A DNA stretch of 45,134 nt from Betaproteobacteria bacterium. Its GTDB lineage: Bacteria > Pseudomonadota > Gammaproteobacteria > Burkholderiales > WYBJ01. Under the pieces are notes generated by a model that was not told the origin of the DNA, made no database searches, and worked only from the letters and a program-made list of their open reading frames with translations. Every line of letters begins with the position of its first letter. Position 1 is the first letter of the stretch. A program made the translations under genes and the position numbers. The DNA is taken from the NCBI GenBank assembly GCA_009377585.1, contig WHTS01000045.1, forward strand, positions 1 to 45,134. The letters are read 5' to 3'. Positions 2,368 through 34,765 of the stretch are shown piece by piece.

Positions 2368-2383
2368 ATATAGGAGCATCGCG

Positions 2384-3586: not shown

Positions 3587-3587
3587 C

Positions 3588-11385: not shown

Positions 11386-11824
11386 TACTCCCACTCAATC
11401 ATCAACGGCGCATGCAAGCCGTTGTCTCATCTCGAGCTTTGCGCTGCGAGTAAGAATTTTACCGTCAGATTTACCGTCAATCCCAATGGCATACCCGAAA
11501 ACTGCATTCACCATCTATCGGCATTTATCGAGGACGATCGGCGCTCGGGCATAGGCCACCATTCGAGATGTATCGAGATCTATCGGTCGCGGCAGGGCTT
11601 GTTGACGGCGTCAACCAGCCCTGTTGCTGATCGAAAATGGCGCTGAAAACATGCCGGCATCAAATGACATAACTCATTGTTGCGAAGCGCCTATTCGTGA
11701 AGGTTTTTACCGTCACGGGCGCACTCTGAAGGCAGCTGCGTGCCGAAAAATAGCAAAAATGGCCGCCATCAAATGCCTTAACCGATTGCCACACAATGAG
11801 TTTTTGAGCATTTTTTTACCGTCA
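11386..11824. repeat. Island repeat R2
   Basis: The core is at 11386-11408 (minus strand PLMIEWE-stop). Paired TACCGTCA boxes begin at 11460 and 11472, a block of TATCG units follows at about 11514-11592, and single TACCGTCA boxes occur at 11708 and 11817. It has the same order and nearly the same spacing as R3 and R4 over about 440 bp, with substitutions but few indels. It lacks the left arms of R1 and R4. The last box supplies the stop codon of the truncated TOTE-like gene. Confidence 0.7.
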
Positions 11825-13980
11825 GGTCAGTCGGGCTGGGGCATTGTGTTTGAGTGACCGCAGAATTCCGTCCAGCACGAGGTCCAACTCCTTGCCTACG
11901 TCTTCGGCAAGAAAGCGCAACACCAAGTATCCGTTCTGCTGCAACAGCTGATCCTTACGGCGGTCGCGTCGGTATACAACGGGATCGCCGAGATGCTGCG
12001 CGCCGTCCAACTCAACCGCCACACGGGAATCGGCGCACAGGAGATCGACCTCGAGTCTTCCGACAGCATCGAACGCGATCGGCAGCGAAACGTTGAGGCG
12101 GAAACGGCCTTTGGTTTCCGACAGGGTCTCCAACCGTCTGTAGAGAAACGCTTCGCTCGCGCTCCGGGCTCGGGCGGCACCGTCGGAATCTGGAAGCACC
12201 GTCTGAGCAGCATGCAGGAACAGACTTGCGAGCGACGTGTCAACTCCATCGCGCACGAGCCTGCGTACGCTGCCAGAGTAATCGCGCTTCCAGAGTGGAT
12301 CGGTCGGTAGCGGCACATCGGCAGGCCACCCCGGGATGGCGCTGGCAGGCAGGAGGATCCTGTAGCCAATTCCTTCATAGCCACGACAACGCCGGTCGAA
12401 CATCCGCGCCAGCATAGGCACATTGAGGTCTGCGTAGTCGTAGATGCGGACGTCGCGCTTGCCCTCGTAGAGACGGTGCAGCCGGCCGGCGTACTGGGCG
12501 ATGGTGCCTCGCCACGAAACAGGAAGCGTCAGAAACAACGTATCCAGTCGTGGATCGTCAAAGCCCTCTCCCACGTGCTTACCCGTTGCCAGGATTACCC
12601 TGGCTTCCTCGCGGGGGATGGTCGCCAGCCGGGCGGCCATCGCCTGTCGCTGTTTTTTTCCCATCCCCGCGCGCAGTACCACCACGTGAGGGACGCTTGT
12701 CGCGAGCCCGCGCTCGAGGCGATCGAGGTGGTCGTTCCGCTCGGTGAGCACGAGTGGCGAGCGCCCGCTACGCACGGACTCGACGACATCCTCGCAGATG
12801 CGTCGAGTGCGCGGCTCGTCGCCGACCAGGTCCTGGTATAGAGTCAGAAATTCGACCCGCTTGTCCGGGTCAGCTTCCTTGATCGGCTGAAAGTTCGTCG
12901 GTTGCACGATCACAATGTGCTCAAAGGGCCGGATTGCCGCCTGTACCCTTGCGTTCACGCGATGGCGAACGGGTCCGCACTGCATGAAGATGATCGGATG
13001 GTGTCCATCCTTGCGGGCCAAGGTAGCAGACAATCCCAAGACAAACCGCGCCTTGACCTGACGCGCCACCTGCTCAAAACCCGGCGCCGACACGTGATGA
13101 CACTCATCGACTATCACGTGACCATACTCGCCCACGCGATCATCGACGACGCCTTTTCTTACGAGACTCTGAATGACGGCCACATCGAGCTGCCCGTTTG
13201 GTCGGCTTCGCCCACCGCCGATTTGACCGATTGCTTGTGCGGGCACGCCAAGGAACGCTGCGAGTCGCTCGATCCATTGGTCGAGCAGTTGCCGTCGATG
13301 CACGAGCACGAGCGAATTGACAGCGCGCTCTGCGATGAGCCAAGCCGCGATCACGGTCTTCCCGAACGCCGTCGTGGCTGCCAGCACGCCTGTGTCGTGC
13401 GCCAGCATCGCGTCCGCCGCGGTTCTTTGCTCAGGGCGCAGTTCGCCCTGGAAGCTCACCTGCAGAGGCTGTCCGCCGTAACGCTCGTCGCGAATGGCGG
13501 GCTGAATACGCAGATCGGCGAGCGTATCGTGAACGTCGTCGAAGCAGCCTCGCGGCAGGCCGATATGATGCGGGTGATCCTCGGCACAGGCGATCACGCG
13601 CCGCTTGCCATACGTGGGCAAGCGCATCGCCTGCGCCTTGTAGAACTCCGGATTCTGAAACGCCGCCAACCGAAGCAGCCGGTTCCGCAGAGCCGGATAT
13701 AGCCCTTCTTTGGCGATATAGATCTGATTGCCGAGAACCAGCCGCAGGGTACGAGGCAGTTCGCCCGCGATCGGCGCTTCCCTGCGGCGGCGCGAGGGAG
13801 GTGCTGTCCACGGCTCTTCTTCTCCGTCGTCCTGGGGCGGCAGGCGCACGCCGAGGACGCGACCACGTCGTTCCGCTTCCTGGACAACCCCTTCTATTTG
13901 ATCTCGGCCTATCCTCCGCACGCTTGCAAGAAACGCCCATTGGTCTGCCCAAGGGACCAGGCCGTAAGGCTCTGCAGGAA
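11822..13980 (-). pseudogene. 5'-truncated TOTE-type helicase with C-terminal DUF559 nuclease
   Basis: An open frame continues up to 14128, but similarity to the intact TOTE protein begins only near DQWAFLASV (about 13960), so the whole primase domain is missing. What remains is an SF2 helicase, with numbering from the start of the open frame: ATTAFGKT near 251-258, DECHH at 341-345, GLSATLARKDG in place of GLTATPFRRDG, and QYAGRLHRLY. A DUF559/Vsr-like nuclease tail of about 110 residues follows, with VAVELDGAQH and DQLLQQNGYLVLRF. The stop lies inside repeat R2. The truncated end abuts an alpha/beta hydrolase scrap and the GGDEF gene. It may still make a helicase-nuclease, but no convincing start codon is visible. 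Confidence 0.65.
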
Positions 13981-14084
13981 CGTGAGTTTTGGGCGGTTGC
14001 ATACGTTGGATACCGTCGAGACTACCGCTACCTACGAAGGCATGCTCGAAAGCGCATGCCATCGTACGGAGCGAGACCCTGCAC

Positions 14085-14180
14085 CCCACTTCGAACATGG
14101 CTCGTCGGCGATGTCGTCCCAGAGGCACTTGCCGTCCTCCGGCACGAAGGCGTCGAGGTACACGAGCGTCCCGAGGATCT
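14085..14180 (-). pseudogene. Alpha/beta hydrolase fragment
   Basis: About 30 codons on the minus strand read LGTLVYLDAFVPEDGK followed by a Trp-Asp pair, a well-conserved internal segment of EstA-like alpha/beta hydrolases. Nothing on either side continues the fold. It lies exactly between the truncated TOTE gene and the end of the GGDEF gene, so it marks an insertion or deletion joint. Confidence 0.5.
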
Positions 14181-18611: not shown

Positions 18612-19985
18612 TCAGCAGCTGGGCCTTGTTCTCAACAGACGCGTCAGCTCCTTCACATCGGCGAGCTTGTCCAGCCCTGCTAATATGTCGCCCAGCCGTG
18701 CCACGTCTTCCTCATGCATCACCAGTCCAGCACATTCCCCGTACTTGCCGAGCAATTCGGCCTTAGTCAATGGATTGTCAGCATGGCCCTTCGCTATCGC
18801 AACCGCATGGCTAATTTGCTTGCCCCCCTTAAGCGTGACAGTGACCGCATCCGGATGATCGAGCGGGATATCGCTTCCCTCCATGATTCTGTGCTCGCTC
18901 ATCGTGACCCGCTTCATCAAGCCCCGGATGCGGGCATCGTTCACCTTCGCATCGGTGAATTGCGCAAGTCTCAGCCCGCGGTCGATGATTGCCGCGGCCA
19001 TGAAGAACTGCATACTGAACTTGGCCTCCAAGCCGGTTTGCGGGCTCGTATGAAACAGAATTTTCGTCACGCGGTCAGGTACAAGGCAGTGCACGGAGAT
19101 TACATCATCAGGCTCGAAGTCAAACTCATCGATCAGGTGCAGCACGGCGTCTATGCACTTGTGAGCAGAGTAGTAGCACGGATACCGCTTCACATTGATA
19201 CCGGGTCGAACGACAGCAAACGGTGCGCCGAGGTCCTCGACCATGCTTGCCGGATCCGTCGCGCCGGTTCCGCACAGCGCAGCCGGAAGTCCGAAGTTGC
19301 CTTCGAGGACCTCGCGTGTGGCAGTCAAGCCTTCCGACACGAGCATCGCAGCAATAATGCCCCCTCGAGCCGCATTTCCGGCATGGAACGGCTTTGCCAT
19401 AGTTCCTAGGTTCTGGATCAAGCCGGCCGCATGCGAGCCACCCAGACCCAGCACCATGGTAGTTTGGTCAACATCGAGCCGCATAAGCTTCGACGCGGCG
19501 ACTGCCGCCCCAAGTGCACCGAAAATGCCAGTTGGATGCCAGCCCAGTGTATGCAGGCGCGGCATGGCGCGAGCAATCTTCAGCCATACTTCGACGCCGA
19601 GAACATACGCTTCGATTACTTCCCGGCCCGATCGCCCCAGTGCCTCGCCTAACGCTAGTACGGTCGGAACAATCACGGCGCTGGGATGTCCGTAACCCAC
19701 ACCGATGTCGTCGTCGTAGTCGAGTGCGTGCGCCATCACGCCGTTAGCAAGCGCGGCGTTCGACGGGGAGGTACGCAAAGGGGCTCCGAAGAGGCTTGCG
19801 CTTGGTTGCCCTCCCAGATTGGCTACGACCTTTGCGACTATTTTGGCAGATTGCTCTCGCGTCCCGGACAGCGCTACCCCGAGGGTGTCCAGAATCGCAC
19901 GCTTCGCGGCAGCGATGGCGTCAGGCGGTATCTCGTCGAATCCGGTCTCTACAATGAACCGCGCCAGCTTTGCGCTAACTTCCAT
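18612..19985 (-). CDS. MmgE/PrpD family protein (2-methylcitrate dehydratase-like)
   Basis: The 457-residue protein is full length for the MmgE/PrpD family: AKRAILDTLGVALSG, ANGVMAHALDYDD, the YGHPSAVIVPTVLALGEA segment, GWHPTGIFGALGAA, and KRYPCYYSAHKCIDA with the conserved tail DHPDAVTVTLKGG. Members dehydrate 2-methylcitrate or act on related hydroxy-acids such as cis-aconitate precursors; many environmental paralogs have unknown substrates. It is the last gene of a leftward operon after an acyl-CoA ligase and a Bug receptor (gap 107 bp), which suggests catabolism of an imported carboxylic acid. Confidence 0.88.
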   Translation of the reverse strand: MEVSAKLARFIVETGFDEIPPDAIAAAKRAILDTLGVALSGTREQSAKIVAKVVANLGGQPSASLFGAPLRTSPSNAALANGVMAHALDYDDDIGVGYGHPSAVIVPTVLALGEALGRSGREVIEAYVLGVEVWLKIARAMPRLHTLGWHPTGIFGALGAAVAASKLMRLDVDQTTMVLGLGGSHAAGLIQNLGTMAKPFHAGNAARGGIIAAMLVSEGLTATREVLEGNFGLPAALCGTGATDPASMVEDLGAPFAVVRPGINVKRYPCYYSAHKCIDAVLHLIDEFDFEPDDVISVHCLVPDRVTKILFHTSPQTGLEAKFSMQFFMAAAIIDRGLRLAQFTDAKVNDARIRGLMKRVTMSEHRIMEGSDIPLDHPDAVTVTLKGGKQISHAVAIAKGHADNPLTKAELLGKYGECAGLVMHEEDVARLGDILAGLDKLADVKELTRLLRTRPSC

Positions 19986-21109: not shown

Positions 21110-23236
21110 CTACTTGAGCATCATCCACGCGTCCGCGGCGATCACGCCCTGTCCCTTGCCTCGAACGAAGATGGGATTGACGTCGATCTCCGCAATCGCA
21201 TCTCGGTGATCCGCAACCAGCCATGACAGGCGCGACAAGACCGTGGCAAGCGCTTCGAGGTCGCAAGGCTCCGTGTTCCGGTACCCCGCAAGCAAGCGCG
21301 CGACGCGTGTCTCGCGGATCATCTCGACCGCCGAATGCTCGTCGAACGGCGCGAAGCGCAACGCCTTGTCGGCAAAGAGCTCGGCAAGCGTTCCTCCGGC
21401 GCCGAAGGCCACGACCGGACCGAAGTAGGGATCGTTCAACGCGCCGGCGATCACCTCAACCCCCTGCGCCATCTCCTGCAGCAGCACGCCCGTGATCCGC
21501 GGCTGGGGCGCACGACGGGATACGGCTTGCACAACGGCCGTCGCCGCCTGCTTGAGTTCCGGCAGCCCGCGGATGCCGAGCCGCACGCCGCCCGCTTCGG
21601 TCTTGTGCGCGATGTCCGGCGAGTCCACCTTGACGGCAAGCGGAAACGGCAAGGGTGCCTGCGTCAACCGATCGATTTCCTGGAGGGTCAGACGCACCTC
21701 ACGCACGGCGGGAATCTCGTAACGTGCGAGACACCGCTTCGCCTCGTATTCCGAGACAGCCGATCGGGTCGCGTCGATTGGGAGCGCCCGGACATTGAAA
21801 GGCCGCCGAAGCGACGCACCGCCATCGCCGTGACGACGCCGCTTGTCCGCGAAATCCGCCAATGCTGCGGCGGCGAAGGCCGCGCGCGCCGGGGTATCGT
21901 AGGCGGGGATGCCCGCTTCGGTCAGCACGGACTGAACTCCCGCGATGCTCTCGCGTAGCCCGCTGATGCTCACAAGGATCGGCTTTTCGCCTTTCCGGCC
22001 GATTTCGGCGAGCCCAGTCGCCCAGCCCTCCACGCCGCTTCCGGGATAGGAGCGAAGGATCAACTGGTCGAGCGCAGGATCGTCGACGATCGCCTGCGTG
22101 GCCGCGTTAAAGCGCTCCGGGTTCTGGGCAAGCTGGGCAGAGAGGTCCATCGGGTTCACCAATGCTGCGAACCCGGGAACGAGCCCTCGCAACCGGGTAA
22201 CGGTTTCTTCTCCCGGCGCGGGCAACGTCAACCCTCGGCGCGTGCATTCGTCGGCAAGCAGTACACCCGCGCCACCGGATGTGGTCACCACACCGATTGA
22301 ACGCCCCCGGGGCAGCTTGCGCGGAAGGAATGCATATGCCGCGTCCACAACGTCGTACATCTCGTGCACTTCCACGAAACCGCCGCACCGAAACGTCTCG
22401 CGATACAGATCGTAATCCGCGGTCAGGTTCGCCGTGTGGGATGCCGCAGCCTTGCGCCCCACGTTGGTATTGCCGACTTTCCAAACCAGAATCGGCTTCC
22501 CGAGCTCGAGCGCCCGCTCGCCCACGGCGCGCAGCCGCTCGCCCCGAGTGACGCCCTCGAGGTAGCACACCACGATCTGCACTTCGGGTTGCTCGATGAG
22601 CCAGGCGAGCACTTCGGTGGTATCGATATCGGTTTCGTTGCCGGTGGACACCATGTAGTCGAAGCCGAGCCCGGCGTCCTGCGCAAAGGCAACAACCGAG
22701 TATCCGAAGCCGCCGCTTTGCGTGACCATCGCGAGAGGACCGGGCTTGAGGTCCGGATTCCGGAAGCCTGCGCCGAAGCCCGCGAACACCCGCTCTCGCA
22801 AGTTGAGCAAGCCGACGCAATTCGGGCCCACAACCCGCACCTTCGAGGCCGAAATCGCTTCACGCAGGCGCATCTCCAGCGCTTCGTTCCCGGTCTCGCG
22901 AAAACCGGCGCTGAGCACGATGGCGAACGGGATGCCGCGCGCGCCGCATTGCTCGATCACCTCGGGCGCACCTTCCGCCGGCACGGCAATCAAGGCGAGA
23001 TCGCACGCCGATGGCACGGCCATTACCGATGGATGACAGATTCGCCCGTGGACACGCTCGCGTTTCGGGTTCACGAGGTGGACCTCGCCTCGAAAGCCGA
23101 ATTGGGTAAGCGCGACGACCGGCTGCCCGCCGGGACGGCGAGCCTCGTCGGTAGCGCCGACGACGACGATGGAGCTTGGACGAAAGAGCGGCGTGAGATC
23201 CATGGCGGAATGCATCGGGGACATCGAGTGAAGCAT
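21110..23236 (-). CDS. NDP-forming acyl-CoA synthetase/ligase
   Basis: The 708-residue protein is a single-chain ligase with fused alpha and beta parts. An N-terminal CoA-binding Rossmann domain (SSIVVVGATDEARRPGG, VGPNCVGLLN) is followed by succinyl-CoA-ligase-like domains with AAASHTANLTADY (His267, the likely phospho-His) and GVVTTSGGAGVLLADE. A C-terminal ATP-grasp part follows (FPLAVKVDSPDIAHKTEAGG, GVEVIAGALNDPYFGPVVAFG, IAEIDVNPIFV). It makes an acyl-CoA from a carboxylic acid, CoA and ATP. It is first in the leftward operon with a Bug receptor and PrpD, and diverges from selenoprotein A1. The acid used is unknown. Confidence 0.9.
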   Translation of the reverse strand: MLHSMSPMHSAMDLTPLFRPSSIVVVGATDEARRPGGQPVVALTQFGFRGEVHLVNPKRERVHGRICHPSVMAVPSACDLALIAVPAEGAPEVIEQCGARGIPFAIVLSAGFRETGNEALEMRLREAISASKVRVVGPNCVGLLNLRERVFAGFGAGFRNPDLKPGPLAMVTQSGGFGYSVVAFAQDAGLGFDYMVSTGNETDIDTTEVLAWLIEQPEVQIVVCYLEGVTRGERLRAVGERALELGKPILVWKVGNTNVGRKAAASHTANLTADYDLYRETFRCGGFVEVHEMYDVVDAAYAFLPRKLPRGRSIGVVTTSGGAGVLLADECTRRGLTLPAPGEETVTRLRGLVPGFAALVNPMDLSAQLAQNPERFNAATQAIVDDPALDQLILRSYPGSGVEGWATGLAEIGRKGEKPILVSISGLRESIAGVQSVLTEAGIPAYDTPARAAFAAAALADFADKRRRHGDGGASLRRPFNVRALPIDATRSAVSEYEAKRCLARYEIPAVREVRLTLQEIDRLTQAPLPFPLAVKVDSPDIAHKTEAGGVRLGIRGLPELKQAATAVVQAVSRRAPQPRITGVLLQEMAQGVEVIAGALNDPYFGPVVAFGAGGTLAELFADKALRFAPFDEHSAVEMIRETRVARLLAGYRNTEPCDLEALATVLSRLSWLVADHRDAIAEIDVNPIFVRGKGQGVIAADAWMMLK

Positions 23237-23307: not shown

Positions 23308-25020
23308 ATGGAGTTATTCGAGGAGCCGCGCGCGGCGGTACTCTGGCCGCTTGCGCGGCGCGCTGTTCGCCGCCGAGAGGCTGCGCCGCGTCTATCCGAT
23401 CTCAACGGCAAGACGATTTGCGAGCTTTGGGACGTCATCTTTCGCGGCGAGACCATCTATCCCCTCGTGCGCGAGTATCTGCGTAGCCGCTTTCCAGGCT
23501 CGCGCTTCGTCGAGTACTCGCAGTTCGGCAACATCTATGGGCCAAAGGAGCGCGACGTGATTGCGTCGCTTCCGGGGAAGTTGCGCCAGCACGGTTGCGA
23601 TGCCGTGATCGCCGGCATCGGAGCCTGAGGGAGCTGCACGCCCGCCGTGTTGCGGGCCGCAGCGCTGACGGAAAGCGAAGGCATTCCTTCCGCATCGATC
23701 ATCGGCTCGGGCTTCGTGCGTCAGGCTGAGCTCGTCATGCGCGGGCTGGGCTTGCCGCTCGGCATGGGAGTCTATCCCGGCGCGCCGATGCTGGACAGCG
23801 AGCCCGAACTGCAACGCAAGGTGAATGAATCGCTCGGACCCGGCCTGCTCGCCGCATTGACGACGCGGACCGCCATCCAGGACGAGAGCGTCCGCGAGCC
23901 GGCACCCGGCGATGTCGTCTTCGACGGCTCGTTCGACGAGATTCAGGAGCATTTTCACCGCAACCGCTGGACGGACGGACTGCCCATCGTGCCGCCGACA
24001 CCTTCACGCGTGGCGGCCTTTCTCTCCTTCACCGCGCGCGCTTCCGATGAGGTCCTGCGAATCGTTCCCCAGGAGAGTCGCGAAGCGACCATCCACAGCA
24101 TCGCTGTCAATGGCGTTATGGCCGGATGCCGTCCGGAATACATGCCCTTGCTGATCGCCATCGTGGAGGCCCTGTGCGATCCGCACTTCCGACTCGAAGA
24201 TGCGGGATCGACCCCGGGATGGGAACCGCTGGTGATCGTGAGCGGGCCGATCGCGCGCGAGCTCGATTTCAATTACGGACAAGGTGTGCTGCGTGTAGGG
24301 CGGCGCGCCAACACGAGCGTAGGTCGTTTCGTGCGGCTGTATCTTCGCAACGTCTGCGGCTACCGGATTCCGCCCGGCAGTGGCGACAAGGCAAGCATCG
24401 GCCAGAGCTTCCTCGTCGCGCTGGCTGAAGACGAAGCGTGTGCGCGAGCAATCGGCTGGCCTACGTTCGCTATGGAGCGAGGGTTTTCTCACCAGGACAA
24501 CGTAGTGACCGTGCAGAGCATCGTGGCCATGACTTCGCCCCTCTACAGCTCGGGTGCGGCCGCCGAGGAGCACGTTCGCCATTGGGCCGATGTCATGGCG
24601 CAGTCGTTCGCCTACTGGAGTCACAATGGCTTCAAACGCGGCGGCTGGTATCCGCTCATCGTCGCTGGGCCCGGCATCGCGGAAGTCATTGCGGGCGAGT
24701 GGAGCAAGGACGACATCCGCCGCTGCCTGCAGCAAAACATGCGGGTTACGGTGGACCGCATCCTGCATTATGCGCGTATGACGAGCACCCCGACCTTCAG
24801 CTTCGAGCAACTCGTGCGCGAGGGAGTTCTTCCGCCGCACTACGCGGAATCGGACGACCCCAAGCGGCTAGTTCCTATGATCATCGATCCCGACACAATT
24901 GGCATCCTGGTTGCCGGCGACCCGGATCGAAACCAGTCGCGTTGCTACATGAGCAACCATTTGCAGGGGGCGCCGGTCAGCCGACGCGTGGCATTGCCTG
25001 CCGGCTGGCGCGCTACCTGA
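23308..25020 (+). CDS. UGSC-family selenoprotein A1 (in-frame UGA = Sec107)
   Basis: Two open segments in the same frame are separated by one TGA at 23626-23628 and are clearly one gene. Before it the protein reads DAVIAGIGA and after it GSCTPAVLRAAAL, giving U-G-S-C, the signature of UGSC selenoproteins. The product has 570 residues with Sec at 107. Residues 1-180 form the UGSC domain (LNGKTICELWDVIFRGE, EYLRSRFPG). After it comes a large domain of unknown function with WTDGLPIVPPTP from 221, NGVMAGC at 268-274 and GQGVLRVGRRANTSVGRF. No signal peptide is seen. ATG 23308 has GGAG 8 bp upstream. A hairpin 11 nt after the TGA can recruit SelB. Without Sec insertion only a 106-residue stub would form. 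Its reaction is unknown. Confidence 0.9.
23629..23663 (+). promoter_or_regulatory. Bacterial SECIS hairpin of selenoprotein A1
   Basis: Eleven nt after the UGA, GCCCGC (23640-23645) pairs perfectly with GCGGGC (23652-23657) around the loop CGUGUU, which holds the GU expected in a bacterial SECIS. An outer stem GCUGC (23633-23637) with GCAGC (23659-23663) extends it across a small internal loop. Distance and size fit SelB-binding elements, and the same stem occurs in gene A2. Confidence 0.8.
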
Positions 25021-25050
25021 GCACGCAAGTTTCTTCGTTGTCGAGCAACA

Positions 25051-26031
25051 TCAGCCGGGACGCATGCCGATCTCGCGGATCACCTTCTTCCATTTCTCGA
25101 CTTCCGCCCTGAGCATGGATTCAAATTCCGCCGAAGTGCTGCCCGCCGGCTCCGCGGCTTGCGTCTGCATACGCTTGCGTACCTCGGGGAGGTGTACCGC
25201 TTTGGAAGTTTCCGCTTGTAGCCGCCGGATGATCTCGCTCGGCGTGCCCGCAGGCGCGACGAAACCCCACCAGTTCACCACTTCGTAGCCTTTCACCGTC
25301 TCCGCAATGGCGGGAACGTCCGGCAGGGCGGGAGAACGCTTTCCAGTCGTGACACCGAGGGCGCGCAAGCGCCCGCTACGTATGTGGTCCTGGACGAGGA
25401 TGACGCTGGTCAACATGAGCTGAACATGACCGCCGAGGAGATCGGCCGCCGCAGGGGCGGCCCCCTTGTACGGTACGTGGGTCATTCGCGCGCCGGCGCT
25501 GCGCAGGAGTTCGATTCCGAGATGAGTGGGACTGCCGGCGCCTGCGGACGCGAATACGAGTTCCTCCGGGCGCGAGCGCGCAAGCGCGATCAACTCCTTC
25601 ATGCTTCTCACGGGCAGCGATGGGTGCACCACCATGACGAGCGGAGTCGTCCCGATCAGTGAAATCGCCACGAGATCCCGGAGCGAATCGTAGGGCAGCT
25701 TGCGCAGCCCCGGGTTGATCGTGAAGGTCGGAGTTACCAAGAGGAGCGAATAGCCGTCGGGCGCCGAGCGGACGACGCCTTCGGTGCCGATGATGGTGCT
25801 TCCTCCGCCGCGATTCTCCACCACGAACTTCTGACCGAGTCCGTCGGCCATCCTTGCCGAGACGAGGCGCCCGATCGTATCGGATGCACCGCCGGGTGCG
25901 AACGGAATCACGAGGCGGATCGGCTTCGTCGGATACGCGGTCGTCGCATCTTGTCCCCATGCGGGAGAGGCGACGACGAGGGCCAGAGCGGCACCTGCAA
26001 ACATCGAACGTTGGTTCATGGCGATCTCCAA
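25051..26031 (-). CDS. Bug/TctC tripartite tricarboxylate-type receptor
   Basis: The 326-residue periplasmic protein is intact. A Sec signal peptide (MNQRSMFAGAALALVVASPAWGQD) is followed by YPTKPIRLVIPFAPGGASDT, NRGGGSTIIGTE, KLPYDSLRDLVAISL, and the pocket region HVPYKGAAPAAADLLGGHVQ. It runs convergent to selenoprotein A1 (30 bp between stops) and diverges from selenoprotein B1 across a 660-bp gap. The ligand cannot be named from sequence. Confidence 0.9.
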   Translation of the reverse strand: MEIAMNQRSMFAGAALALVVASPAWGQDATTAYPTKPIRLVIPFAPGGASDTIGRLVSARMADGLGQKFVVENRGGGSTIIGTEGVVRSAPDGYSLLLVTPTFTINPGLRKLPYDSLRDLVAISLIGTTPLVMVVHPSLPVRSMKELIALARSRPEELVFASAGAGSPTHLGIELLRSAGARMTHVPYKGAAPAAADLLGGHVQLMLTSVILVQDHIRSGRLRALGVTTGKRSPALPDVPAIAETVKGYEVVNWWGFVAPAGTPSEIIRRLQAETSKAVHLPEVRKRMQTQAAEPAGSTSAEFESMLRAEVEKWKKVIREIGMRPG

Positions 26032-26040
26032 TACTTATAC

Positions 26041-26300
26041 TTTCGCACTCAAGGCCACTTCAAAGTCGGCGCAGTCCTGGCCGCCATCCGCGCCCACCTG
26101 GAACCCGAACCCCAGCCCGCCGCAGCTTTCCGGCCACAGGACGCCGAGCCAGCCGAGGTTGGCGGATCTCCCTCCATAACTCACCGTCCAAGCCGGGGGG
26201 TGCCGCGCAGCTTCCGCGCCAGAGGTCCGTATGCCCCGCGCGAGATCCGCGTGCCGGCGAACGCAGCGTTAGATCCGGCCCGCAGGGTTTGGAGCATCCA
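26041..26300 (-). pseudogene. Probable acyl-CoA dehydrogenase N-terminal remnant
   Basis: On the minus strand LDGELWREI is followed, one frame over, by ANLGWLGVLWPESCGGLGFG (near 26105-26175), which is a typical stretch of acyl-CoA dehydrogenase N-terminal domains. No further domain follows and several frames are needed, so it is a relic. The remainder of the gap up to 26691 holds no gene that I recognise. Confidence 0.4.
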
Positions 26301-26691
26301 ATCGCCTTCCGCCCCGGCGGCCGCTTGGGTACTCCCCATGAACCGGCCTCCTTGCTTTGTTTCCCGCCGGCGCGGTAAGCGCGAGCGGATGAGCCACGGC
26401 AGGCACGCCGGTCTGCTGCGGTGTGGACAGAGAGGCACGCGTCGATGGCGGAAAGTTGCACGGCATCGATGCCTTGGTCCGGGTGAAGCCGGCCAAGCGG
26501 TTCGACACGGCCAATTTGCGCATCGATATTCGCGCTCGCAATGCATCGATGTCAAGAACCAACGCCTCTTCCGGAATCGAGGTGGAGGCACGCGTCGCTA
26601 TGCGGTATGCTGCCGCACCTGGTTGTCATTCATTCACGGTGCGATGCTCGAGAGCAGCAGAGGCCGTGCTTCGAATCAGGAGCGCCTTTCC

Positions 26692-28302
26692 ATGTCCGAA
26701 CAGATTCTCATCCTCGAGCCCGCCGCGGTCACCGCGAGCAACATCGTCGCCCCTCGCCGTCGCGCACTGGATTTGCACGGCAAGCGCGTCGGCATCATCG
26801 ACAATACCAAGCCCAATTTCGACCTTCTGGCAGACGACCTGGGAGCGCTGCTCATGCAAGCGTACGGCGTCTCGGGCATCGTGAAGCATCGCAAGCGAGC
26901 CCCTTCCGTCCCCGCGACCGCGGCGATGATGCAGGACCTCCAGGACAAGTGCGAGCTGATCATTGCCGGCTCCGGCGACTGAGGGTCGTGCACGTCGTGG
27001 AGTGTCCACGACAGCATAGAGGCACGAAAGCGGGGCCTCGCATCGGCCGTCGTCTGCTCGACTGCCTTCGAAAGCCTGGGACGGGCGCAAGCGAAGGCAC
27101 TCGGCGCTCCGACCCTGCCGATCGCTTTGGTCCCGCATCCTTTCGGCGCCCGTACTCGTGACGAGATCCGGGCCATTGCTCGCGATTGCGCGGCCGAAAT
27201 TGTCCGGGTGGTACAGGAAGAGGTGCCCGATTCGAGCGAATCGGGCTCTATCGACACGGCGCTCGAAACCCGCCTGATCCGCGTTCCGCGCGAGCAGGAG
27301 TCGTTCGACGCGTTCTGCCGGGAACATCACTGGAGCGACGGCTTCCCGCTCGTCTCGCCGACCCCCGATCGCGTCGAGCGCATGCTTCGGGGTACGCGAC
27401 GCGGGCGCCAGGAGGTCATCGCAGCGATCCCGCCTTCGTTCGCCGCCGCGACGATCGAGCGAATCGCAGCCAACGCAGTCATGGCGGGTTGCGCACCGAG
27501 CTTCCTGCCGGTTCTCATTGCCGCAGTCGAGGCCACCTGCGACTCGGCCTTCAACCTTCAGGGCGTGCAAACGACCACGAATCCGGCCACCGCCTGGATC
27601 ATCGTGAACGGGCCGATTGCCGGCGTGCTCGGCATCAATGCAGGCGTGAATTGCCTCGGTCAGGGCGCGTGGCCGAACGCGACGATCGGACGGGCCCTGC
27701 GGCTCGTGCTGCAGAATCTCGGCGGCGCCGTCCCCGGAACGATGGATCGGGCGACGCAAGGCCAGCCAGGCAAGTACAGCTTCTGCTGTGCGGAGAACGA
27801 AGCGGCGAATCCCTGGGAACCACTCCACGTCGAGCGCGGCCATGCAGCCGGCGCGAGCACTGTGACGCTGGCGGCCGTCGCGGGCACGCTCAATCTGAAC
27901 AGCCACTCGAAGAACGCCGACGATCTGCTGCGTGTGTTCGCCGATACGCTGGCGCATCCGACGAGCAACGACTACTGGTATGCGGGCGCGCCCTTCGTCG
28001 TGCTCGCGCCGGAGCATGCCGAAGTCCTGCATCGCGCCGGACTGAGCAAGGCCGACGTGAAGCGCAGACTCTGGGAGGAATCGCGGTTGCACGCCTCGCG
28101 GCTGTCCGCCAAGGACTATACGCGCCCGGAGCACGCCCGGGTCGAGCTCGCTCCCATGACGCCCGATACGCTTATTCCGATCACGACCGACCCAGCCGGG
28201 ATCGCGATCATCGTTGCCGGGGGACCGGGGACGCATTCGGCCTACGTGCCCGGCTTCGGCAACAGCAGGCCGGTCACACGACCTGTTGAAGTATCTGCCT
28301 GA
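26692..28302 (+). CDS. UGSC-family selenoprotein B1 (in-frame UGA = Sec97)
   Basis: Reading through the TGA at 26980-26982 joins a 96-codon segment to a 439-codon segment in the same frame, giving a 536-residue product. The junction is ELIIAGSGD-U-GSCTSWSVHD. The N-terminal UGSC domain has LHGKRVGIIDNTKPNFDLLADDLG, then VVCSTAF and LVPHPFGART. The second domain carries WSDGFPLVSPTP from 214, NAVMAGC with Cys267, and FCCAENEAANPWEPLHVERG. It is cytosolic by lack of a signal. ATG 26692 is chosen for AGGAG at 26678-26682. It is paralogous to B2 with long identical blocks. Function is unknown; a redox role for the UxxC pair is likely. Confidence 0.9.
26983..27012 (+). promoter_or_regulatory. Bacterial SECIS hairpin of selenoprotein B1
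   Basis: After an 11-nt spacer, GUCGUGG (26994-27000) pairs with CCACGAC (27006-27012) around AGUGU; an eighth A-U pair could close the loop to GUG. GU is exposed in the loop. It is an exact match to the stem of B2 although the surrounding bases differ. Confidence 0.8.
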
Positions 28303-28466
28303 TAACTCAACGAGCGCGAGCCAGCGTTTCTCCGCAATGGCGCGCAATGTCAATGCGCACTAAGTTATGCCGGATCTGCTTCAAAGGAAGGCGACTGGGC
28401 AAACGCCGCGGGGTCCCGAGCGCGAGCGCATCTGAGCAGGCCTCGGCACAGAAGATGCCTGCTCCC
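28303..28466. other. Convergent intergenic gap
   Basis: The 164 bp between the stops of selenoproteins B1 and A2 hold no gene. I saw no clear hairpin with a T-run on either strand, so the terminators are not identified. Confidence 0.4.
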
Positions 28467-30230
28467 TCATGAGGTGATGTGCTTCGGAACGGGCCGCAAC
28501 TCGTGCCATTTGCGTGGAAGCGCGATGCGCTTGACGACCGGAAACCCAAGCAGGCCGTTATGAGCAAAGACGTACGCGTTCGTGCGCAGGACATCACCGG
28601 ACACGGCAATCATATAATGATCTGCTTGCCATACCAGTGGCACCATGCGATCCGGATCGTCGGAATCGCGGAATACCGGCGGGATGCGGCCGCCGCGCAC
28701 CTCTTCGGCTAGATTCCAGACAGGTTTTACCGTCCAATCGCGTAGGATGCGCTCGAACTCGAATGCAGGAATGCGCGCATGCTCGAACAGGTAGCGCTGA
28801 ACGTCGGCCTTGGACCACCCCGCTTTTGCAATCGTCCGCGCGAGTATCGGACTGAGCAGGATGAGCGGCCGGAGCGTCCCCATGCCCTGCCCTACCGTGA
28901 ACATGAGCTGCCACGAGATCTGGCGCACGACCGTATCGGCAAGGTAGGGGAGCATTTGCTCGGGTGTCGTACCCGACACGGACACGATGACGTTGCCGCC
29001 GGTGTATCGGGCTGTCGTGATCGCGTTCTCGCCGCGGGCGAGACCCATGTCCATCGCGACCGTCGGCCAGCCGATTTCGTTCAGAACGTCTTCGTTTTCC
29101 GCAAGGACCACGCGCCACGTATTGCCGAAGGTACACTTGTCGTTCTTGTGCGGCAGGAAGCCGGCGACGTTGCGTAGGTACAGGCGCCAGAAGCGCCCGA
29201 TGGACGTGTTCGGCACGAACCCGTCTCGGATGACGCCTTGTGTGTAGTTGAAACCGAGCTCCTTGATGATGGGCCCGTTCAGGGTGATGAGGGTCTCGCC
29301 GGCTGGTGTATTGCCGCTGTGCTCGACGCCGTATTGCGGGTCCACCATCGCCTCGATGAGGGCAACCAGTATCGGCATGTATTCCGCCCGGCAGCCCGCC
29401 ATCACGCCGTTCACCGCAATGCTCCAGATCGTCGCCGGTCGGTTATCCGGCAGGACGATGCCGAGCACTTCGTCCGGATCGCGATCGGTGTACGCAAGAA
29501 ACTGCTCGATTCGCTCCCGGTTGGGCGGCACGATCGGCAGGCCATCCGCGAGCTCGTTGTCCTGGAAGTAGCGGTTGACGGCGTCGAAATCACCCGCGAA
29601 TACGATGTGGCGCGAGCCGGGCTCCTCCAGATTGGGGGCGGCGGCCGGTCCTCGTGTAAGGTTCTCTACGATTCGATCGACGGTCAACTCGACGATGTTG
29701 CGCCTGAGCTCCTCCGCACTCTGCACTCCTGGATGCCCGGGAACCACGGCGATCGGCATTTGCCGAACGCCCATGCCAAGCGACACGGCAGAAGCCTGAC
29801 TGGTGAAGCCCTCGGAAACGAGCGACGAGCTGGGAACGCCCTCCGCTTCACACACCGCACTCGCCCGCAACACGGCGGGCGTGCAGCTTCCTCAACACCC
29901 CATCCCCGAGATCGCAGCGTCTACGCCGAGCGCTTTGAATCGCTGCGGCAGCTGGGCCAGCACTTCGCGCTCGTCGCTCCCGTGCGTGTTGCCGAATTCC
30001 TTCCAGTGAACGAAGCGGACATCCGGAAAGCGCGCCCTCAACGCCTCTTCGATCGCCTCGAACACGAGATCGCCGCGAAAAAGATAGTCCCAGAGCTGCG
30101 CGATGGTCTTCCCGTTGAGTGTGTCGAGCCGTGGCGCGAGCCGCAACGCCTTGGTCCGTCGCGGCGTCCTCGGCCAGTACACTTCGTAATGACCATCGTT
30201 CCATGTTCTGGACGAACGTCCTCCCTTCAT
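28467..30230 (-). CDS. UGSC-family selenoprotein A2 (in-frame UGA = Sec113)
   Basis: The minus-strand frame is open on both sides of a single TGA at 29892-29894. Around it the protein reads AAISGMGC-U-GSCTPAVLRASA, so Cys112 sits next to Sec113, unlike in A1. The full product has 587 residues. The N-terminal part matches A1 (LNGKTIAQLWDYLFRGD, RFPDVRFVHWKEFGNTHG). The large domain has LADGLPIVPPNRERIEQFL, NGVMAGCRAEYMPILVALIEAM, the TIGWP-like block NEIGWPTVAMDMGLARGEN and a C-terminal DPDRMVPLVW. GGAG lies 8 bp before ATG 30230. It diverges from a Bug gene across 124 bp that contain a TATATAC-rich promoter-like stretch. Confidence 0.9.
29857..29891 (-). promoter_or_regulatory. Bacterial SECIS hairpin of selenoprotein A2
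   Basis: On the minus strand GCCCGC (29880-29875) pairs with GCGGGC (29868-29863) around the loop CGUGUU, 11 nt after the UGA. GCAC just before the stem can pair with GUGC at 29860-29857 across a GA bulge. The inner stem and loop equal those of A1, but the outer stem is formed by different bases. Confidence 0.8.
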
Positions 30231-30354
30231 CGCGTGAGCTCCAGTACATACGCAACAGGATTCCGTAGTATATAGTACACGCCACTCGCTGCGCCCTTTG
30301 GTGGACGCCCAACGATTATCTCGATGTCATAGGAAGATGCGGAGGATGGCAAGA

Positions 30355-31374
30355 ATGCCCGACGACCTAACACATTCGTCGACGTGCCCGGTGCGCCGAG
30401 CGTGCGCTGTCCTCGCGCTCGCGGCCTTGATGCTGCAGCCCGCTTGTGGGCGCGCTCAGGGTGAAGGGGCAACTGAAGCTTATCCCGCGAAGCCGGTGCG
30501 CCTGATCGTGCCTTACGCACCGGGCGGACCCACGGACACGCTGTCGCGTATCGTCGCCAAGGCTCTTGCAGAGCGCTGGAAGCAGCAGGTCGTGGTCGAC
30601 AACCGGGCCGGCGCGAACGGCATTATCGGAGCGACGTACGCCGCTCGGGCGGCGCCCGATGGCTACACGCTGTTCCTCGGCAACTCCGGCGTCCTCACCA
30701 GCAATCCCGCCCTGTACTCGAAGCTGCCCTACGACCCGCTCAAGGACTTTGCGCCCGTAAGCAATCTTGCCGCGGCGCCTCTGATGCTGGTCGCGCATCC
30801 CTCGCTACATATCTCGACGATCCCGCAACTCGTGAAGCTTGCAAAATCGCATCCAGGTGAACTCACGTTCGCCTCCGGCGGAGCCGGTGGTGTCGCGCAT
30901 CTGGCAGGAGAGCTTCTCAATTCAATGAGCGGTATCAAGACGGTCCACATCGCGTACAAAGGTGCGGCTCCGGCGCTTACGGCCCTCTTGGGTGGCCAAG
31001 TGTCTTTCAATTACACGAGCATTGTCACTGCGCTGCCTCACGTGAAAGCTGGGCGTATCGTCGGCGTCGCCGTGACTACCGAGAAGCGCTCGCCGGCGCT
31101 GCCGAATATCCCAGCGATCGGCGAAAGCATACCAGGTTACGAAGTGACAGCATGGTACGGAATCGTGCTGCCGGCTGGGGCGCAGCCGGCTCTGATCCAA
31201 CGCATCAACACGGATCTCGTCGCGGTGCTTCACGACAAGGCAATCGAAGAGCGCGTCGTCACCGACGGTGGTGCGATCGCAGCGGGCTCCCCCGAGTCCT
31301 TCCGCAAGCTGATCCGGTCCGACATCGCAAAGTGGATGCGGCTCGCGAAGTCCGCGCAGCTCAAGCTCGACTGA
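30355..31374 (+). CDS. Bug/TctC receptor in operon with selenoprotein B2
   Basis: The 339-residue protein starts at ATG 30355, where GGAGG stands at the right distance; upstream in-frame ATGs lack this. A signal peptide (RRACAVLALAALMLQPACG) leads to YPAKPVRLIVPYAPGGPTDT, NRAGANGIIGATYAA, KLPYDPLKDFAPVSN and HIAYKGAAPALTALLGGQVS. Its stop is 19 bp before the GTG of selenoprotein B2, so they are co-transcribed. This is the only direct operon link between a receptor and a UGSC protein here and suggests that the selenoprotein acts on the imported solute or a product of it. Confidence 0.9.
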   Translation: MPDDLTHSSTCPVRRACAVLALAALMLQPACGRAQGEGATEAYPAKPVRLIVPYAPGGPTDTLSRIVAKALAERWKQQVVVDNRAGANGIIGATYAARAAPDGYTLFLGNSGVLTSNPALYSKLPYDPLKDFAPVSNLAAAPLMLVAHPSLHISTIPQLVKLAKSHPGELTFASGGAGGVAHLAGELLNSMSGIKTVHIAYKGAAPALTALLGGQVSFNYTSIVTALPHVKAGRIVGVAVTTEKRSPALPNIPAIGESIPGYEVTAWYGIVLPAGAQPALIQRINTDLVAVLHDKAIEERVVTDGGAIAAGSPESFRKLIRSDIAKWMRLAKSAQLKLD

Positions 31375-31393
31375 TCTCAATGAGGACTGTGCA

Positions 31394-33001
31394 GTGACGC
31401 AATCCCTTCTGATACTCGATCCCGTGGCGCCACCGCGGCACGCGCGTGCGCGAGCCCAGGCAATCACGTCGCTCGCAGGAAAAAGGGTCGGCTTCATCGA
31501 CAACTCGAAACCCAATTTCCACCATCTGGTCGACGACCTCGCAGAGCTGCTCGTGCAGCGGCACGGCGCCGCAGCCGTCATCAAGCGCCGTAAGCGGGCG
31601 GCCTCAATACCGGCACCCGCCGACATCATGCGCGAAATGGGTCAATGTGACCTGATCATAAGCGGGTCCGGCGATTGAGGGTCTTGCACGTCGTGGAGTG
31701 TCCACGACTGTGTCGAGGCAACGAAGCTCGGCCTGCCGGCAATCGTCATCTGCTCGACCGCGTTCACTACGCTCGCACATGCGCAGTCGAAGGCGCTCGG
31801 CTGCGCCGAGCTGCCCACTCTCGTGATGCCACACCCCTTCGGCTCGCAGCCGCGCGAAGCGGTCCACGCCATCGCCGATAACCTCGTTTTGCAGATCGAG
31901 CGCGTGCTGCGGGAGTGGCCTGCGCAGGCGGACAGCGCGCCCGAGGCGACGTTTCTGGAGAGCGAACGCGCCACGCGCATGGAGGCCCCGCCCGATCAGG
32001 AAAGTTTCGACCGGCTGGCGCGCGATCGCTGCTGGACCGATGGGCTGCCTCTTGTGCCGCCCACCCTCCCGCGCGTCGAGACGCGCATTGCCGCAGGAGG
32101 GTACGACCGCGACGAGGTCATCGCGCATGTCGCGCCTGCATTCGGTGCAGCAACGATCGAGCGCATCGCGGTGAACGCCGCGATGGCCGGTTGCCCGCCA
32201 GAAGCAATGCCGGTACTGATAGCCGCCATCGAAGCGCTTTGCGATCCGGGGTTCAACCTACAAGGCATTCAAGCCACCACCAATCCGGCCACTGCATGCA
32301 TCATCGTAAACGGTCCTGTCGTCGAACGGCTGAGTTTCAACGCGGGCATCAACTGCCTCGGCCAAGGCTCCTGGGCGAATGCAACTGTCGGTCGGGCACT
32401 GCGCCTCGTCATGCAGAACATTGGCGGCGCGCGGCCTGGTGAAATGGACCGCGCAACGCACGGTCAACCCGGAAAATACAGCTTGTGTTGCGCGGAGAAC
32501 GAAGCAGCGAATCCCTGGGAACCACTGCATGTCGAGCGCGGCTATGGCCCCGGTGAAAGCACGGTCACGGTGATCGGTGTTTCCGGCACGCTCAACATGA
32601 ACACACACGCGAAAGATGCCGACGATCTCTTGCGCGTGCTTGCCGATACGATTGCCTATCCCACCAGCAACGACTACTGGTTCGGCGGGGAGCCGTGGCT
32701 GATTCTCTCACCGGAGCACGCGGAGATTCTTGCGAACGCTAGACTGACGAAAGCAGAGGTCAAAGCGCGTCTGTGGGAGGAATCCAAGATGGCAGCGAGC
32801 CGACTATCCAGGAAGGATCACACTCGTACTCAGCACACTCGCCGTGCGGAACTCGGTGACTTTGCTCCGCACACGCATCTGCCAGTATCGACGAAATCGG
32901 AAGACATCGGCCTAATCGTAGCGGGGGGTGCGGGTACCCACTCGGTTTACATGCCGACGTTCGGCAATACTCGCTCTGTGACACGGCCGATTCGCGCATA
33001 G
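31394..33001 (+). CDS. UGSC-family selenoprotein B2 (in-frame UGA = Sec95)
   Basis: The start is GTG 31394 with GAGGA 7 bp upstream. The TGA at 31676-31678 falls in LIISGSGD-U-GSCTSWSVHDC, and the frame then stays open to 33001, giving 535 residues. It shares with B1 the segment GKRVGFIDNSKPNFHHLVDD, WTDGLPLVPPTLPRV, NAAMAGCPPEAMPVLIAAIEALCDP, GKYSLCCAENEAANPWEPLHVERGY and RLWEESKMAASRLSRKDH. It is slightly shorter and slightly less GC-biased than B1. Downstream lies IS3-type debris, so the operon ends here. Function is unknown. Confidence 0.9.
31679..31708 (+). promoter_or_regulatory. Bacterial SECIS hairpin of selenoprotein B2
   Basis: An 11-nt spacer follows the UGA, then GUCGUGG (31690-31696), loop AGUGU, and CCACGAC (31702-31708). 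Stem and loop are identical to B1. The codons in the stem encode TSWSVHD in both proteins, so protein constraint alone could explain part of the identity. Confidence 0.78.
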
Positions 33002-33763: not shown

Positions 33764-34765
33764 TCAATCCAGGCGGATGCCTGCGACCTCGATGATTCTG
33801 GTCCAGCGCGCGTGCTCGGACTTCATGTAGTCGGACAATTCGCGCGGGGTGCTCGGAAACGGTTCGGCGCCCTGGGTGAGCAGTCGCTGTGACAACTCTC
33901 GGCTGGCGAGCGCTTTGGCGACGTGCTGATTGAGTAGGTCGATAATCCGGGACGAGGTGCCCCGTGGCGCGAACAGGCCGAACCAGACCGTGTCGTCGTA
34001 GCCCGGCACGCCGGACTCCGCGATCGTGGGCACGTCGGGCAGCAGGGCCGAGCGCTGGGGGCTCCCCACGCCGAGGATCTTCAGCCTTCCGGCCTTGATG
34101 TGCGACATCACGGTGGGAAGGCTGGTGAGCTGCAGTTGGACGTTGCCGGCGAGGAGATCCACCAGCGCAGGCGCCGCGCCCTTGTAGGGGACGTGAACGA
34201 TGTCGATGGCTGCGAGATGCTTGAGCATCTCCGCACCGACGTGGTTGGAGGAGCCGCGGCCAGGCGATGCAATGTTCAACTGACCGGGCTTGGCCTTTGC
34301 CAACGCGATCAGTTCCTTGACGTTGTTCGCCGGCAGCGAAAGCGTGGCCACGAGCGCCTGTGCGTTGCGATTGAGTCGAATGACCGGATCGAAGTCCCTG
34401 AACGGGTCGTAGGGCAGCTTTGCGTGTAGCAGCGGATTGGTCACCATGCCGGAGGAGCTGCCGAGCAGCAGCGTGTAGCCGTCCGGCGCCGCTTTCGCCG
34501 CGAGCATCGTGCCAATGACCGCACCCGCGCCGCCGCGATTGTCTACCACCACCTGATGTCCGAGCGACCCCGCGAGGCTGTGCGCCACCGCTCGGCCGAC
34601 GAAGTCGGTCGAACCGCCGGGCGGAAACGGCACGATCAGCCGCACCGGCTTCGTCGGATAGGGCTGCGCCGAGAGCTGCGCTGGTCCCAGAGCAAGGAAG
34701 AACGCAAGCAGGCATACGTGTGGCCTTATGCGTGGAGTCAGGTTCGTGTGCGGATTTGCTTGCAT
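33764..34765 (-). CDS. Bug/TctC receptor downstream of amidase 1
   Basis: The 333-residue protein is complete. Its signal peptide (VCLLAFFLALGPAQLSA) follows a 15-residue polar start, then come YPTKPVRLIVPFPPGGSTDFVG, VDNRGGAGAVIGTMLAA, KLPYDPFRDFDPV and HVPYKGAAPALVDLLAGNVQ. It lies 145 bp downstream of an amidase gene, same direction, and is the last gene of the leftward amidase/Bug cluster. Confidence 0.9.
   Translation of the reverse strand: MQANPHTNLTPRIRPHVCLLAFFLALGPAQLSAQPYPTKPVRLIVPFPPGGSTDFVGRAVAHSLAGSLGHQVVVDNRGGAGAVIGTMLAAKAAPDGYTLLLGSSSGMVTNPLLHAKLPYDPFRDFDPVIRLNRNAQALVATLSLPANNVKELIALAKAKPGQLNIASPGRGSSNHVGAEMLKHLAAIDIVHVPYKGAAPALVDLLAGNVQLQLTSLPTVMSHIKAGRLKILGVGSPQRSALLPDVPTIAESGVPGYDDTVWFGLFAPRGTSSRIIDLLNQHVAKALASRELSQRLLTQGAEPFPSTPRELSDYMKSEHARWTRIIEVAGIRLD

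Follow-up and report, generated by a model that had tools for sequence, protein, structure and literature searches.

How are four long genes, each interrupted by an in-frame TGA codon, to be read when they lie within 10 kb of each other on one betaproteobacterial contig? The genes, here called A to D (Table 1), are encoded on contig WHTS01000045.1 of assembly GCA_009377585.1 (Betaproteobacteria bacterium, GTDB lineage WYBJ01), which was analysed over its 45,134 nucleotides (the window). A preliminary description had proposed that they are paralogs of the UGSC selenoprotein family, of unassigned function, in a host that makes selenocysteine (Sec). The results presented below indicate that these four apparently broken genes are almost certainly intact, functional selenoprotein genes, and that they join a UGSC domain related to the Sec domains of GrdB and PrdB to an unannotated partner domain.

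Selenocysteine coding of the UGSC genes

Each of the read-through open reading frames (ORFs) A to D contains one in-frame TGA, in the contexts GAUGSCT (A), GDUGSCT (B), GCUGSCT (C) and GDUGSCT (D), all in the same UGSC column. Homologous protein continues on both sides of this codon, as had been claimed: matches to the Pfam UGSC model PF24696 span the TGA in all four genes, with scores of 82.8 (A), 157.5 (B), 100.7 (C) and 158.2 bits (D) at a cut-off of 25. The NCBIfam equivalog model NF041046 (cut-off 125 bits) is passed by gene D alone (128.6 bits), with B, C and A reaching 120.9, 49.9 and 39.9 bits, respectively.

The cluster of four paralogs exists as described, but it understates the family. 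The source genome (6.76 Mb, 242 contigs, 99.4% complete, 4.85% contamination) encodes 24 UGSC genes recognised by PF24696, 23 of them with one TGA at the same motif and a single one (locus L013) with TGC, encoding cysteine (Cys), in its place. Nor do the four genes form one tandem array; they fall into two subfamilies, B with D and A with C. Partner-domain identity is 64% between B and D, which are mutually closest in the genome, and 42% between A and C. A single tandem duplication was rejected as the source of all four genes, since the closest paralogs of A (L051, 59%) and of C (L045/L046, 68%) are on other contigs.

Sec synthesis, which the proposal required of the host, is encoded in the source genome. 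Adjacent selA (558 bits, cut-off 268) and selB (442 bits, cut-off 242) genes are followed at about 1 kb by a tRNA-SeC with anticodon tca, and selD (412 bits) has an in-frame TGA of its own (L186, C2:81361-82290), because of which SelD is itself probably a selenoprotein. Three other genomes of the genus, which here constitutes the whole GTDB family, have 16, 24 and 19 UGSC matches above cut-off with one TGA each. Over the four genomes 82 of 83 above-cut-off matches contain exactly one TGA, a count that excludes three weaker matches and for which the TGA column was inspected in the source genome only. In a sample of the phylum, with at most eight candidates scored per genome, UGSC genes occur in only five of 398 genomes, the source genome included, and the other four have one or two copies; therefore, the expansion is a feature of the WYBJ01 lineage.

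An unrelated residue at the TGA site of homologs would have spoken against Sec. Homologs have Cys at this site, both in L013 and in copies from Natrialba (L117), Sphingomonas (L147) and Binatia (L151). Starting from 30 of the 80 partner loci described below, SelA was searched in 30 UGSC genomes; 28 pass the Pfam cut-off and 26 score at least 333 bits, one of the latter (G407) with a match that covers model positions 1-260 only. Among the genomes without a strong SelA are Natrialba asiatica (G413) and the Sphingomonas and Binatia metagenome-assembled genomes (MAGs), in which the UGSC copies seen are of the Cys type. The association of strong SelA with TGA rather than Cys has a Fisher p of about 0.001, the line between strong and weak SelA having been drawn after the scores were seen and the Binatia genome taken as Cys type with its second UGSC match not listed. 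This correspondence is disturbed by a SAR202 MAG (G410, 1.9 Mb), which is of the TGA type yet lacks a full-length SelA, and by SelA matches of 51 and 32 bits in G410 and G413, which were set aside though above the Pfam cut-off and are taken as paralogs, like the second matches in other genomes. Separate origins of the Cys copies were also considered and no claim is made, since the tree needs four changes and shuffled labels give the same.

In Blastococcus, TAG replaces TGA at the Sec site. A tRNA-Sec with anticodon CUA has been reported in the family of this genus, and UGSC-motif selenoproteins of such genomes are said in the same source to have been described earlier (PMC5330540). Ordinary gene callers would treat the TGA codons of the window as true stops, leaving pseudogenes or two-piece genes, and sequencing errors or the coding of another residue would be further readings of this kind, for which no positive evidence was found. 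The match between TAG and the CUA anticodon counts against them (PMC5330540), as do the recurrence of TGA at one motif in 23 of the 24 copies of the genome, the single TGA in nearly all above-cut-off copies of the genus, the Cys found there in genomes without full-length SelA, the presence of selABCD and the hairpins discussed below. Such readings are thus highly improbable, and the Sec coding of the four genes is near certain, that is, as certain as sequence can make it.

SECIS-like hairpins

The hairpin reported after each TGA can form in all four genes. When 48-base windows are ranked by folding energy within their own gene, those after the TGA lie at percentiles of 0.006 (D), 0.01 (C), 0.052 (A) and 0.124 (B), the rank of gene B being weak. 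Over 100 TGA sites the same window has a median percentile of 0.097, with 51% of the sites below 0.1, and folding energy alone was rejected on these values as proof of a selenocysteine insertion sequence (SECIS). Because it is insufficient by itself, tests of synonymous recoding and codon choice were relied on.

Ninety-three of 99 TGA sites that have 48 bases without N fit one of two hairpin registers. At least six of eight pairs of the class I register are kept at 84 of the 99 sites, and all six pairs of the class II register at nine; the latter class, which includes genes A and C, has the helix sequence TPAVLRAS or TPAVLRAA and a hairpin register shifted with respect to class I. Neither register fits the remaining six, five of which (L014, L020, L022, L023 and L024) are outside both classes, the sixth being L132, a class I site with five of eight pairs. 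In L024 (C21:4598-4894 of the source genome), an ORF that by eye resembles acyl-coenzyme A (CoA) dehydrogenases continues without a frame change into the latter half of a UGSC domain, which would be the result of a deletion, a fusion or an assembly join.

When synonymous codons are redrawn at random at the usage of the genes themselves (500 draws per class), the mean pairing falls from 7.59 to 5.10 ± 0.16 of eight pairs at 85 class I sites, and from 6.0 to 3.51 ± 0.32 of six pairs at the nine class II sites, the observed value exceeding all 500 recodings in each class. In 32 distinct class I stems, 89% of the cells pair over seven pairs and double changes occur at four pairs, against 35-49% and double changes at 0-2 pairs when the register is slid (four testable shifts). 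In copies whose loop codon is a serine codon, it is AGT in 76 of 76, as compared with 184 of 2708 serine codons elsewhere in the same stretches; the hairpin sequences are related, so that these counts are not independent trials. Cys copies retain five (L013), seven (L117), six (L147) and seven (L151) of the eight class I pairs, recoded Sec copies about five. The recoding and codon results indicate that the hairpins are kept beyond the requirements of the protein sequence and are selected at the nucleotide level.

Two-part architecture

The C-terminal part of the window proteins, of about 340 amino acids, has no convincing match in Pfam, NCBIfam or the PDB. A model of this partner domain finds it at all 24 UGSC genes of the source genome: fused in 15, fused and cut short in one (L010) and encoded by a separate same-strand neighbour, before or after UGSC, in eight. 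In L010 (L035:4624-5769) the domain ends after about one third of its length, and elsewhere in the source genome (L224:8406-9419, on C33) a partner gene occurs without UGSC in the surrounding 16-kb stretch.

Beyond the source genome, 80 partner loci from named genomes were examined, the best 80 of at least 553 confirmed relatives; several of these loci share a genome. UGSC is found on the same strand in 76, and in 72 of these it is fused or within 300 bp. The four loci without UGSC in reach are L104, whose sequence begins at the end of its contig, L096, on a contig of 4.2 kb that leaves 3 kb upstream free, and L143 and L152, which have full flanks. According to their titles the hosts include Betaproteobacteria, Chloroflexota, Rokubacteria, Deltaproteobacteria, a haloarchaeon and an actinobacterium. 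Four loci are titled Bordetella parapertussis (L088, L091, L103 and L121); their partner genes resemble those of environmental betaproteobacteria and the labels look wrong. The two-part architecture is well supported, and the near-constant presence of this unannotated partner, fused or adjacent, in several phyla is new here.

The AlphaFold2 model of the gene B product, with Cys replacing Sec, has a pLDDT of 95.5 and a pTM of 0.94. Its UGSC domain is an alternating beta/alpha sandwich in which residue 97, the Sec position, follows strand 89-95 and lies just before helix 98-113. Residues that are invariant or nearly so (gene B numbering) include Sec97, Gly98, Cys100, Asp216, Cys267, Asn329, Arg334 and Glu368; in the partner domain Asp216, Arg334 and Glu368 are invariant and Cys267 is conserved in 97%, as is the Cys of the UxxC motif. 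Searches for sequence relatives in the PDB returned nothing significant. The highest-ranked fold match of the UGSC domain, 8s7v_H (a chain of an MCR activation complex, Z 10.5), was rejected as a meaningful relative, since unrelated structures follow at Z 9-10. Modelled alone, the partner (pLDDT 94.4) has only weak fold matches, the best being a two-subunit fumarate hydratase (Foldseek E 3e-3, Z 4.9); at this level and below the matches are not usable, and a fumarase-like fold was rejected.

The fold bears on the possibility that UGSC proteins are thiol/selenol antioxidants, peroxidases or disulfide reductases with a thioredoxin-like role and a regulatory or client partner domain. Such a role would suit the UxxC motif, the fusion to a thioredoxin reductase (TrxR)-like protein described below and a fold that has been called 'likely Trx-like' (PMC2398784). 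However, the ranked fold matches of the modelled sandwich are mostly Rossmann, receiver or flavodoxin-like; the thioredoxin fold is not among them, though absence from this list excludes nothing. An antioxidant is not expected to occur as 24 to about 146 paralogs in the company of solute receptors and CoA-pathway genes, the sequence relation is to GrdB and PrdB, and we regard this role as unlikely.

Relationship to GrdB and PrdB

When 46 UGSC domains were scanned against NCBIfam, the most frequent match after UGSC itself was GrdB (24 of 46, best E 1.2e-6), followed by the selenoprotein-B family and PrdB (13 each), GrdF (11) and GrdH (10); the next model by count was matched by five domains, at E 0.02 or worse. 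No repeated GrdB or PrdB match was recovered from Pfam with the same 46 domains. The Pfam GRDB model, which ends just before Sec, was also searched in 26 UGSC genomes. It gave 18 long matches, 12 of which were obtained as loci; on extension each of the 12 proved to continue with TGA, in UG(T/S)(C/S/G). Comparison of the UGSC domain with these 12 GrdB-type Sec domains by hhalign gave a probability of 96.9% and an E of 1.3e-10 over 99 columns, with Sec aligned on Sec. A common ancestry of the UGSC and GrdB/PrdB Sec domains is well supported by these profile comparisons. No statement of this relation was found in the UGSC passages of the papers retrieved on UGSC selenoproteins, and literature searches found nothing on a 'UGSC family' by that name, nor on SAR202 with a selenoprotein.

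The 12 full-length GrdB-type selenoprotein genes (L226-L232, L248-L252) were reached through betaproteobacterial, rokubacterial, chloroflexotal and deltaproteobacterial loci, and several lack the first or second Cys of the motif. Shorter matches (L233-L242) cover only the second half of the GRDB model, which stops ahead of the Sec site, and possibly represent another PrdB-like family.

Gene neighbourhood and expansion of UGSC genes

In Blastococcus (L118:5496-6953) UGSC carries a TrxR-like protein as an in-frame N-terminal fusion, and the partner gene is next to it. The TrxR-like part scores 101.5 bits with Pyr_redox_2 and 180.7 bits with TIGR01292, below the equivalog cut-off of 343, and the motif CAGCDG can be read in its sequence. 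A TrxR-like gene also lies directly upstream of UGSC in two Reyranella-labelled loci. These three cases were found by eye; a pattern scan of the 80 loci caught one of them and therefore says little about the remaining loci, among which others may exist.

Around the 24 UGSC systems of the source genome, TctC (Bug) solute receptors account for 17 of 97 neighbour ORFs, other neighbours being MmgE/PrpD proteins (3) and CoA ligases. The 97 comprise 95 of 114 listed ORFs and two from the window, one of them an MmgE/PrpD ORF (18615-19985) just over 3 kb from gene A; the 19 left out are mostly short and one is very long. A TctC gene occurs within 1.5 kb of 13 of the 24 systems. First-look candidates for TctC number 454 in this genome (150 scored), which is of the same order as the 434 receptors reported for Rhodoplanes (PMC5994714).

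A further expansion was found in a Chloroflexota groundwater MAG (JACPQD01; G409, the genome of L108; L188-L223), 5.0 Mb in size. All 150 candidates scored, out of 208, are UGSC matches; 146 contain TGA (three of them two TGAs) and four do not, and there is a single SelA match. The TGA position was inspected in six stretches of 15-20 kb, which contain 28 UGSC genes with one TGA each, 27 of these shown at the motif. A partner is encoded beside all 28, and 20 of the 36 other ORFs are SBP_bac_5 proteins. Of bacterial selenoproteomes, the largest that a 2026 review mentions has 63 genes and is given with a warning of co-assembly (PMC13188914); this warning applies equally to the MAG described here.

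The neighbourhood would also agree with a non-redox catabolic enzyme (lyase, hydratase, racemase or transferase) in which Sec serves as nucleophile or as metal or acid ligand and the partner does the main chemistry. MmgE/PrpD, enoyl-CoA hydratase and CoA-ligase genes are nearby, the best weak matches of the partner are two-subunit fumarate hydratase and cyclic amide hydrolases, and Arg334, Glu368, Asp216 and Cys267 are conserved. Nevertheless, the partner fold matches are below the reliable level, and the retention of the UxxC Cys together with the TrxR-like fusion points to redox cycling. An enzyme of this type is a real possibility, albeit a rather doubtful one.

Proposed function

The best reading of these observations, which we hold with moderate confidence, is that UGSC-partner proteins are Sec-dependent reductases of two parts, driven by thiols, with imported small molecules as substrates. 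Three features suggest the reduction of such molecules, namely the descent of the Sec domain, its fusion to a TrxR-like protein and the receptors encoded nearby. By analogy with GrdB and PrdB, the selenolate, at the N-terminus of a helix in the N-terminal alpha/beta sandwich, would attack a substrate at an activated carbon, the partner domain holding this substrate in place, and would displace a leaving group. Thiols, which the TrxR-like flavoprotein may supply, would then reduce the Se-Cys (UxxC) or Se-substrate state so formed, and the many paralogs would each serve a different small molecule delivered by a neighbouring receptor. What the analysis shows is Sec coding, at the level of sequence, together with the two-part architecture, the GrdB/PrdB homology, the TrxR-like fusion and the receptor neighbourhood; reductive cleavage, the partner as substrate site and one substrate per paralog are what we infer.

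The glycine, betaine and sarcosine reductase selenoproteins (GrdB, GrdH and GrdF) and PrdB of D-proline reductase resemble UGSC proteins in their Sec domain, with Sec on Sec in U-G-[TS]-C-T...E..GIP, and their thiol-driven Sec chemistry is the model for the mechanism. UGSC proteins differ in having no detectable GrdB N-terminal part or GrdE/PrdA, mostly no second Cys and another partner; PF07355, whose first half represents the GrdB N-terminal part, has no match in the four window proteins. FarB/FarE, the proposed fluoroacetate reductase of Cloacibacillus, likewise combines a GrdB-type selenoprotein of substrate-specific role with a transporter linked to it and a partner that lacks pyruvoyl processing (PMC10838667), whereas in UGSC proteins only the Sec domain is GrdB-related, the partner is another one and copy numbers are far higher.

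Several observations weigh against this proposal. The partner shows no detectable homology to GrdB by hhalign (probability 0.7%), and GrdE/PrdA models of NCBIfam have no match in 23 partner domains; because the partner matches neither, there is no sign of the pyruvoyl group that activates the substrate in the classical enzymes, although an unrecognised carbonyl group may be present. The GrdB/PrdB family is stated to have the motif UxxCxxC (PMC13188914), and its second Cys (+6) is found at seven of 99 UGSC sites and in none of the window genes. TrxR-like partners were seen in three loci only. TctC genes are very common in the source genome, so that 13 of 24 is only about twice a rough hand estimate for chance, and the SBP_bac_5 figure for the Chloroflexota MAG is a raw count, uncorrected for background. 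GrdB enzymes are known from anaerobes, and several UGSC hosts are probably aerobic. To our knowledge, no UGSC-family protein has been assayed.

Other features of the window

The features of the window that relate to the UGSC genes are listed in Table 1. No in-frame ATG was found near the start of gene D, for which a GTG about 20 nucleotides past the TctC stop is the likely start. The true start of that TctC gene is probably inside its ORF.

Table 1. UGSC-partner genes of the window, their predicted Sec codons and hairpins, and neighbouring genes.
Feature	Position	Strand	Remarks
Gene A, fused UGSC-partner selenoprotein	23308..25020	+	class II motif GAUGSCTPAVLR
Gene A domains	UGSC 23338-23859; partner 23929-24999	+
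Gene A predicted Sec codon TGA	23626..23628	+
Gene A SECIS-like hairpin	23640..23657	+	class II, GCCCGC-loop-GCGGGC
Gene B, fused UGSC-partner selenoprotein	26692..28302	+	class I motif GDUGSCTSWSVHD
Gene B domains	UGSC 26710-27216; partner 27292-28293	+
Gene B predicted Sec codon TGA	26980..26982	+
Gene B SECIS-like hairpin	26994..27012	+	class I, GUCGUGG-AGUGU-CCACGAC
Gene C, fused UGSC-partner selenoprotein	28467..30230	-	class II motif GCUGSCTPAVLR
Gene C domains	UGSC 29655-30185; partner 28515-29594	-
Gene C predicted Sec codon TGA	29892..29894	-
Gene C SECIS-like hairpin	29863..29880	-	class II
Gene D, fused UGSC-partner selenoprotein	~31394..33001	+	class I motif GDUGSCTSWSVHD; likely GTG start at 31394
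Gene D domains	UGSC 31412-31912; partner 31994-32998	+
Gene D predicted Sec codon TGA	31676..31678	+
Gene D SECIS-like hairpin	31690..31708	+	class I
ADP-forming acyl-CoA synthetase-like protein, upstream of gene A	21110..23236	-
TctC (Bug) solute receptor between genes A and B	25051..26031	-	PF03401 245.8 bits
TctC (Bug) solute receptor, directly upstream of gene D	30298..31374	+	PF03401 214.4 bits for 30349-31374
TctC (Bug) solute receptor downstream of gene D	33764..34765	-

The window also contains predicted defence genes. Oligonucleotide cyclase, E2 and phospholipase genes follow each other at 2327-5106, forming an operon of the cyclic oligonucleotide-based antiphage signalling system (CBASS) type (PADLOC), and an AbiEi/AbiEii abortive-infection pair is present at 9624-11329. 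The latter is flanked by a strong PrimPol match (7243-9588), with weak helicase or restriction-type matches there and at 11822-14128.

Novelty and implications

In 2008 aquatic metagenomes were reported to have UGSC proteins among their abundant selenoproteins (PMC2398784), and a 2026 review still lists them with the families whose function is largely uncharacterised (PMC13188914). The family itself and its fusion to 'Unknown_1' had been published before (PMC2398784). With the PF24696/NF041046 family the window proteins share the PF24696 match, the UxxC motif and the interchange of Sec and Cys, and they depart from it in that D alone passes NF041046 and A and C form a distinct class. The fusion of UGSC to a conserved uncharacterised domain reported by Zhang and Gladyshev in 2008 (PMC2398784) probably involves the partner found here; the difference is that the partner here is nearly always fused or adjacent, and in several phyla. 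New here, besides that near-constant partner, are the GrdB/PrdB homology, the TrxR-like fusion or adjacency and the solute-receptor neighbourhood. With the homology, the partner, the fusion and the receptors, what was an 'unknown redox protein' becomes an enzyme that can be tested and that has a proposed electron donor and substrate route.

If the Chloroflexota MAG is one genome, the known limit of selenium use in bacteria would rise far beyond the 63 genes of the 2026 review, and through a single family; its more than 140 Sec-coding paralogs would be over twice that selenoproteome (PMC13188914). We put forward tentatively that UGSC-partner proteins may constitute a large unrecognised branch of selenium-dependent reductases, driven by NADPH through TrxR-like flavoproteins and removing leaving groups from imported organic compounds. 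With what may be more than 140 Sec-coding paralogs in one Chloroflexota lineage, many with a solute receptor beside them, they could amount to a selenium-based catabolic toolkit.

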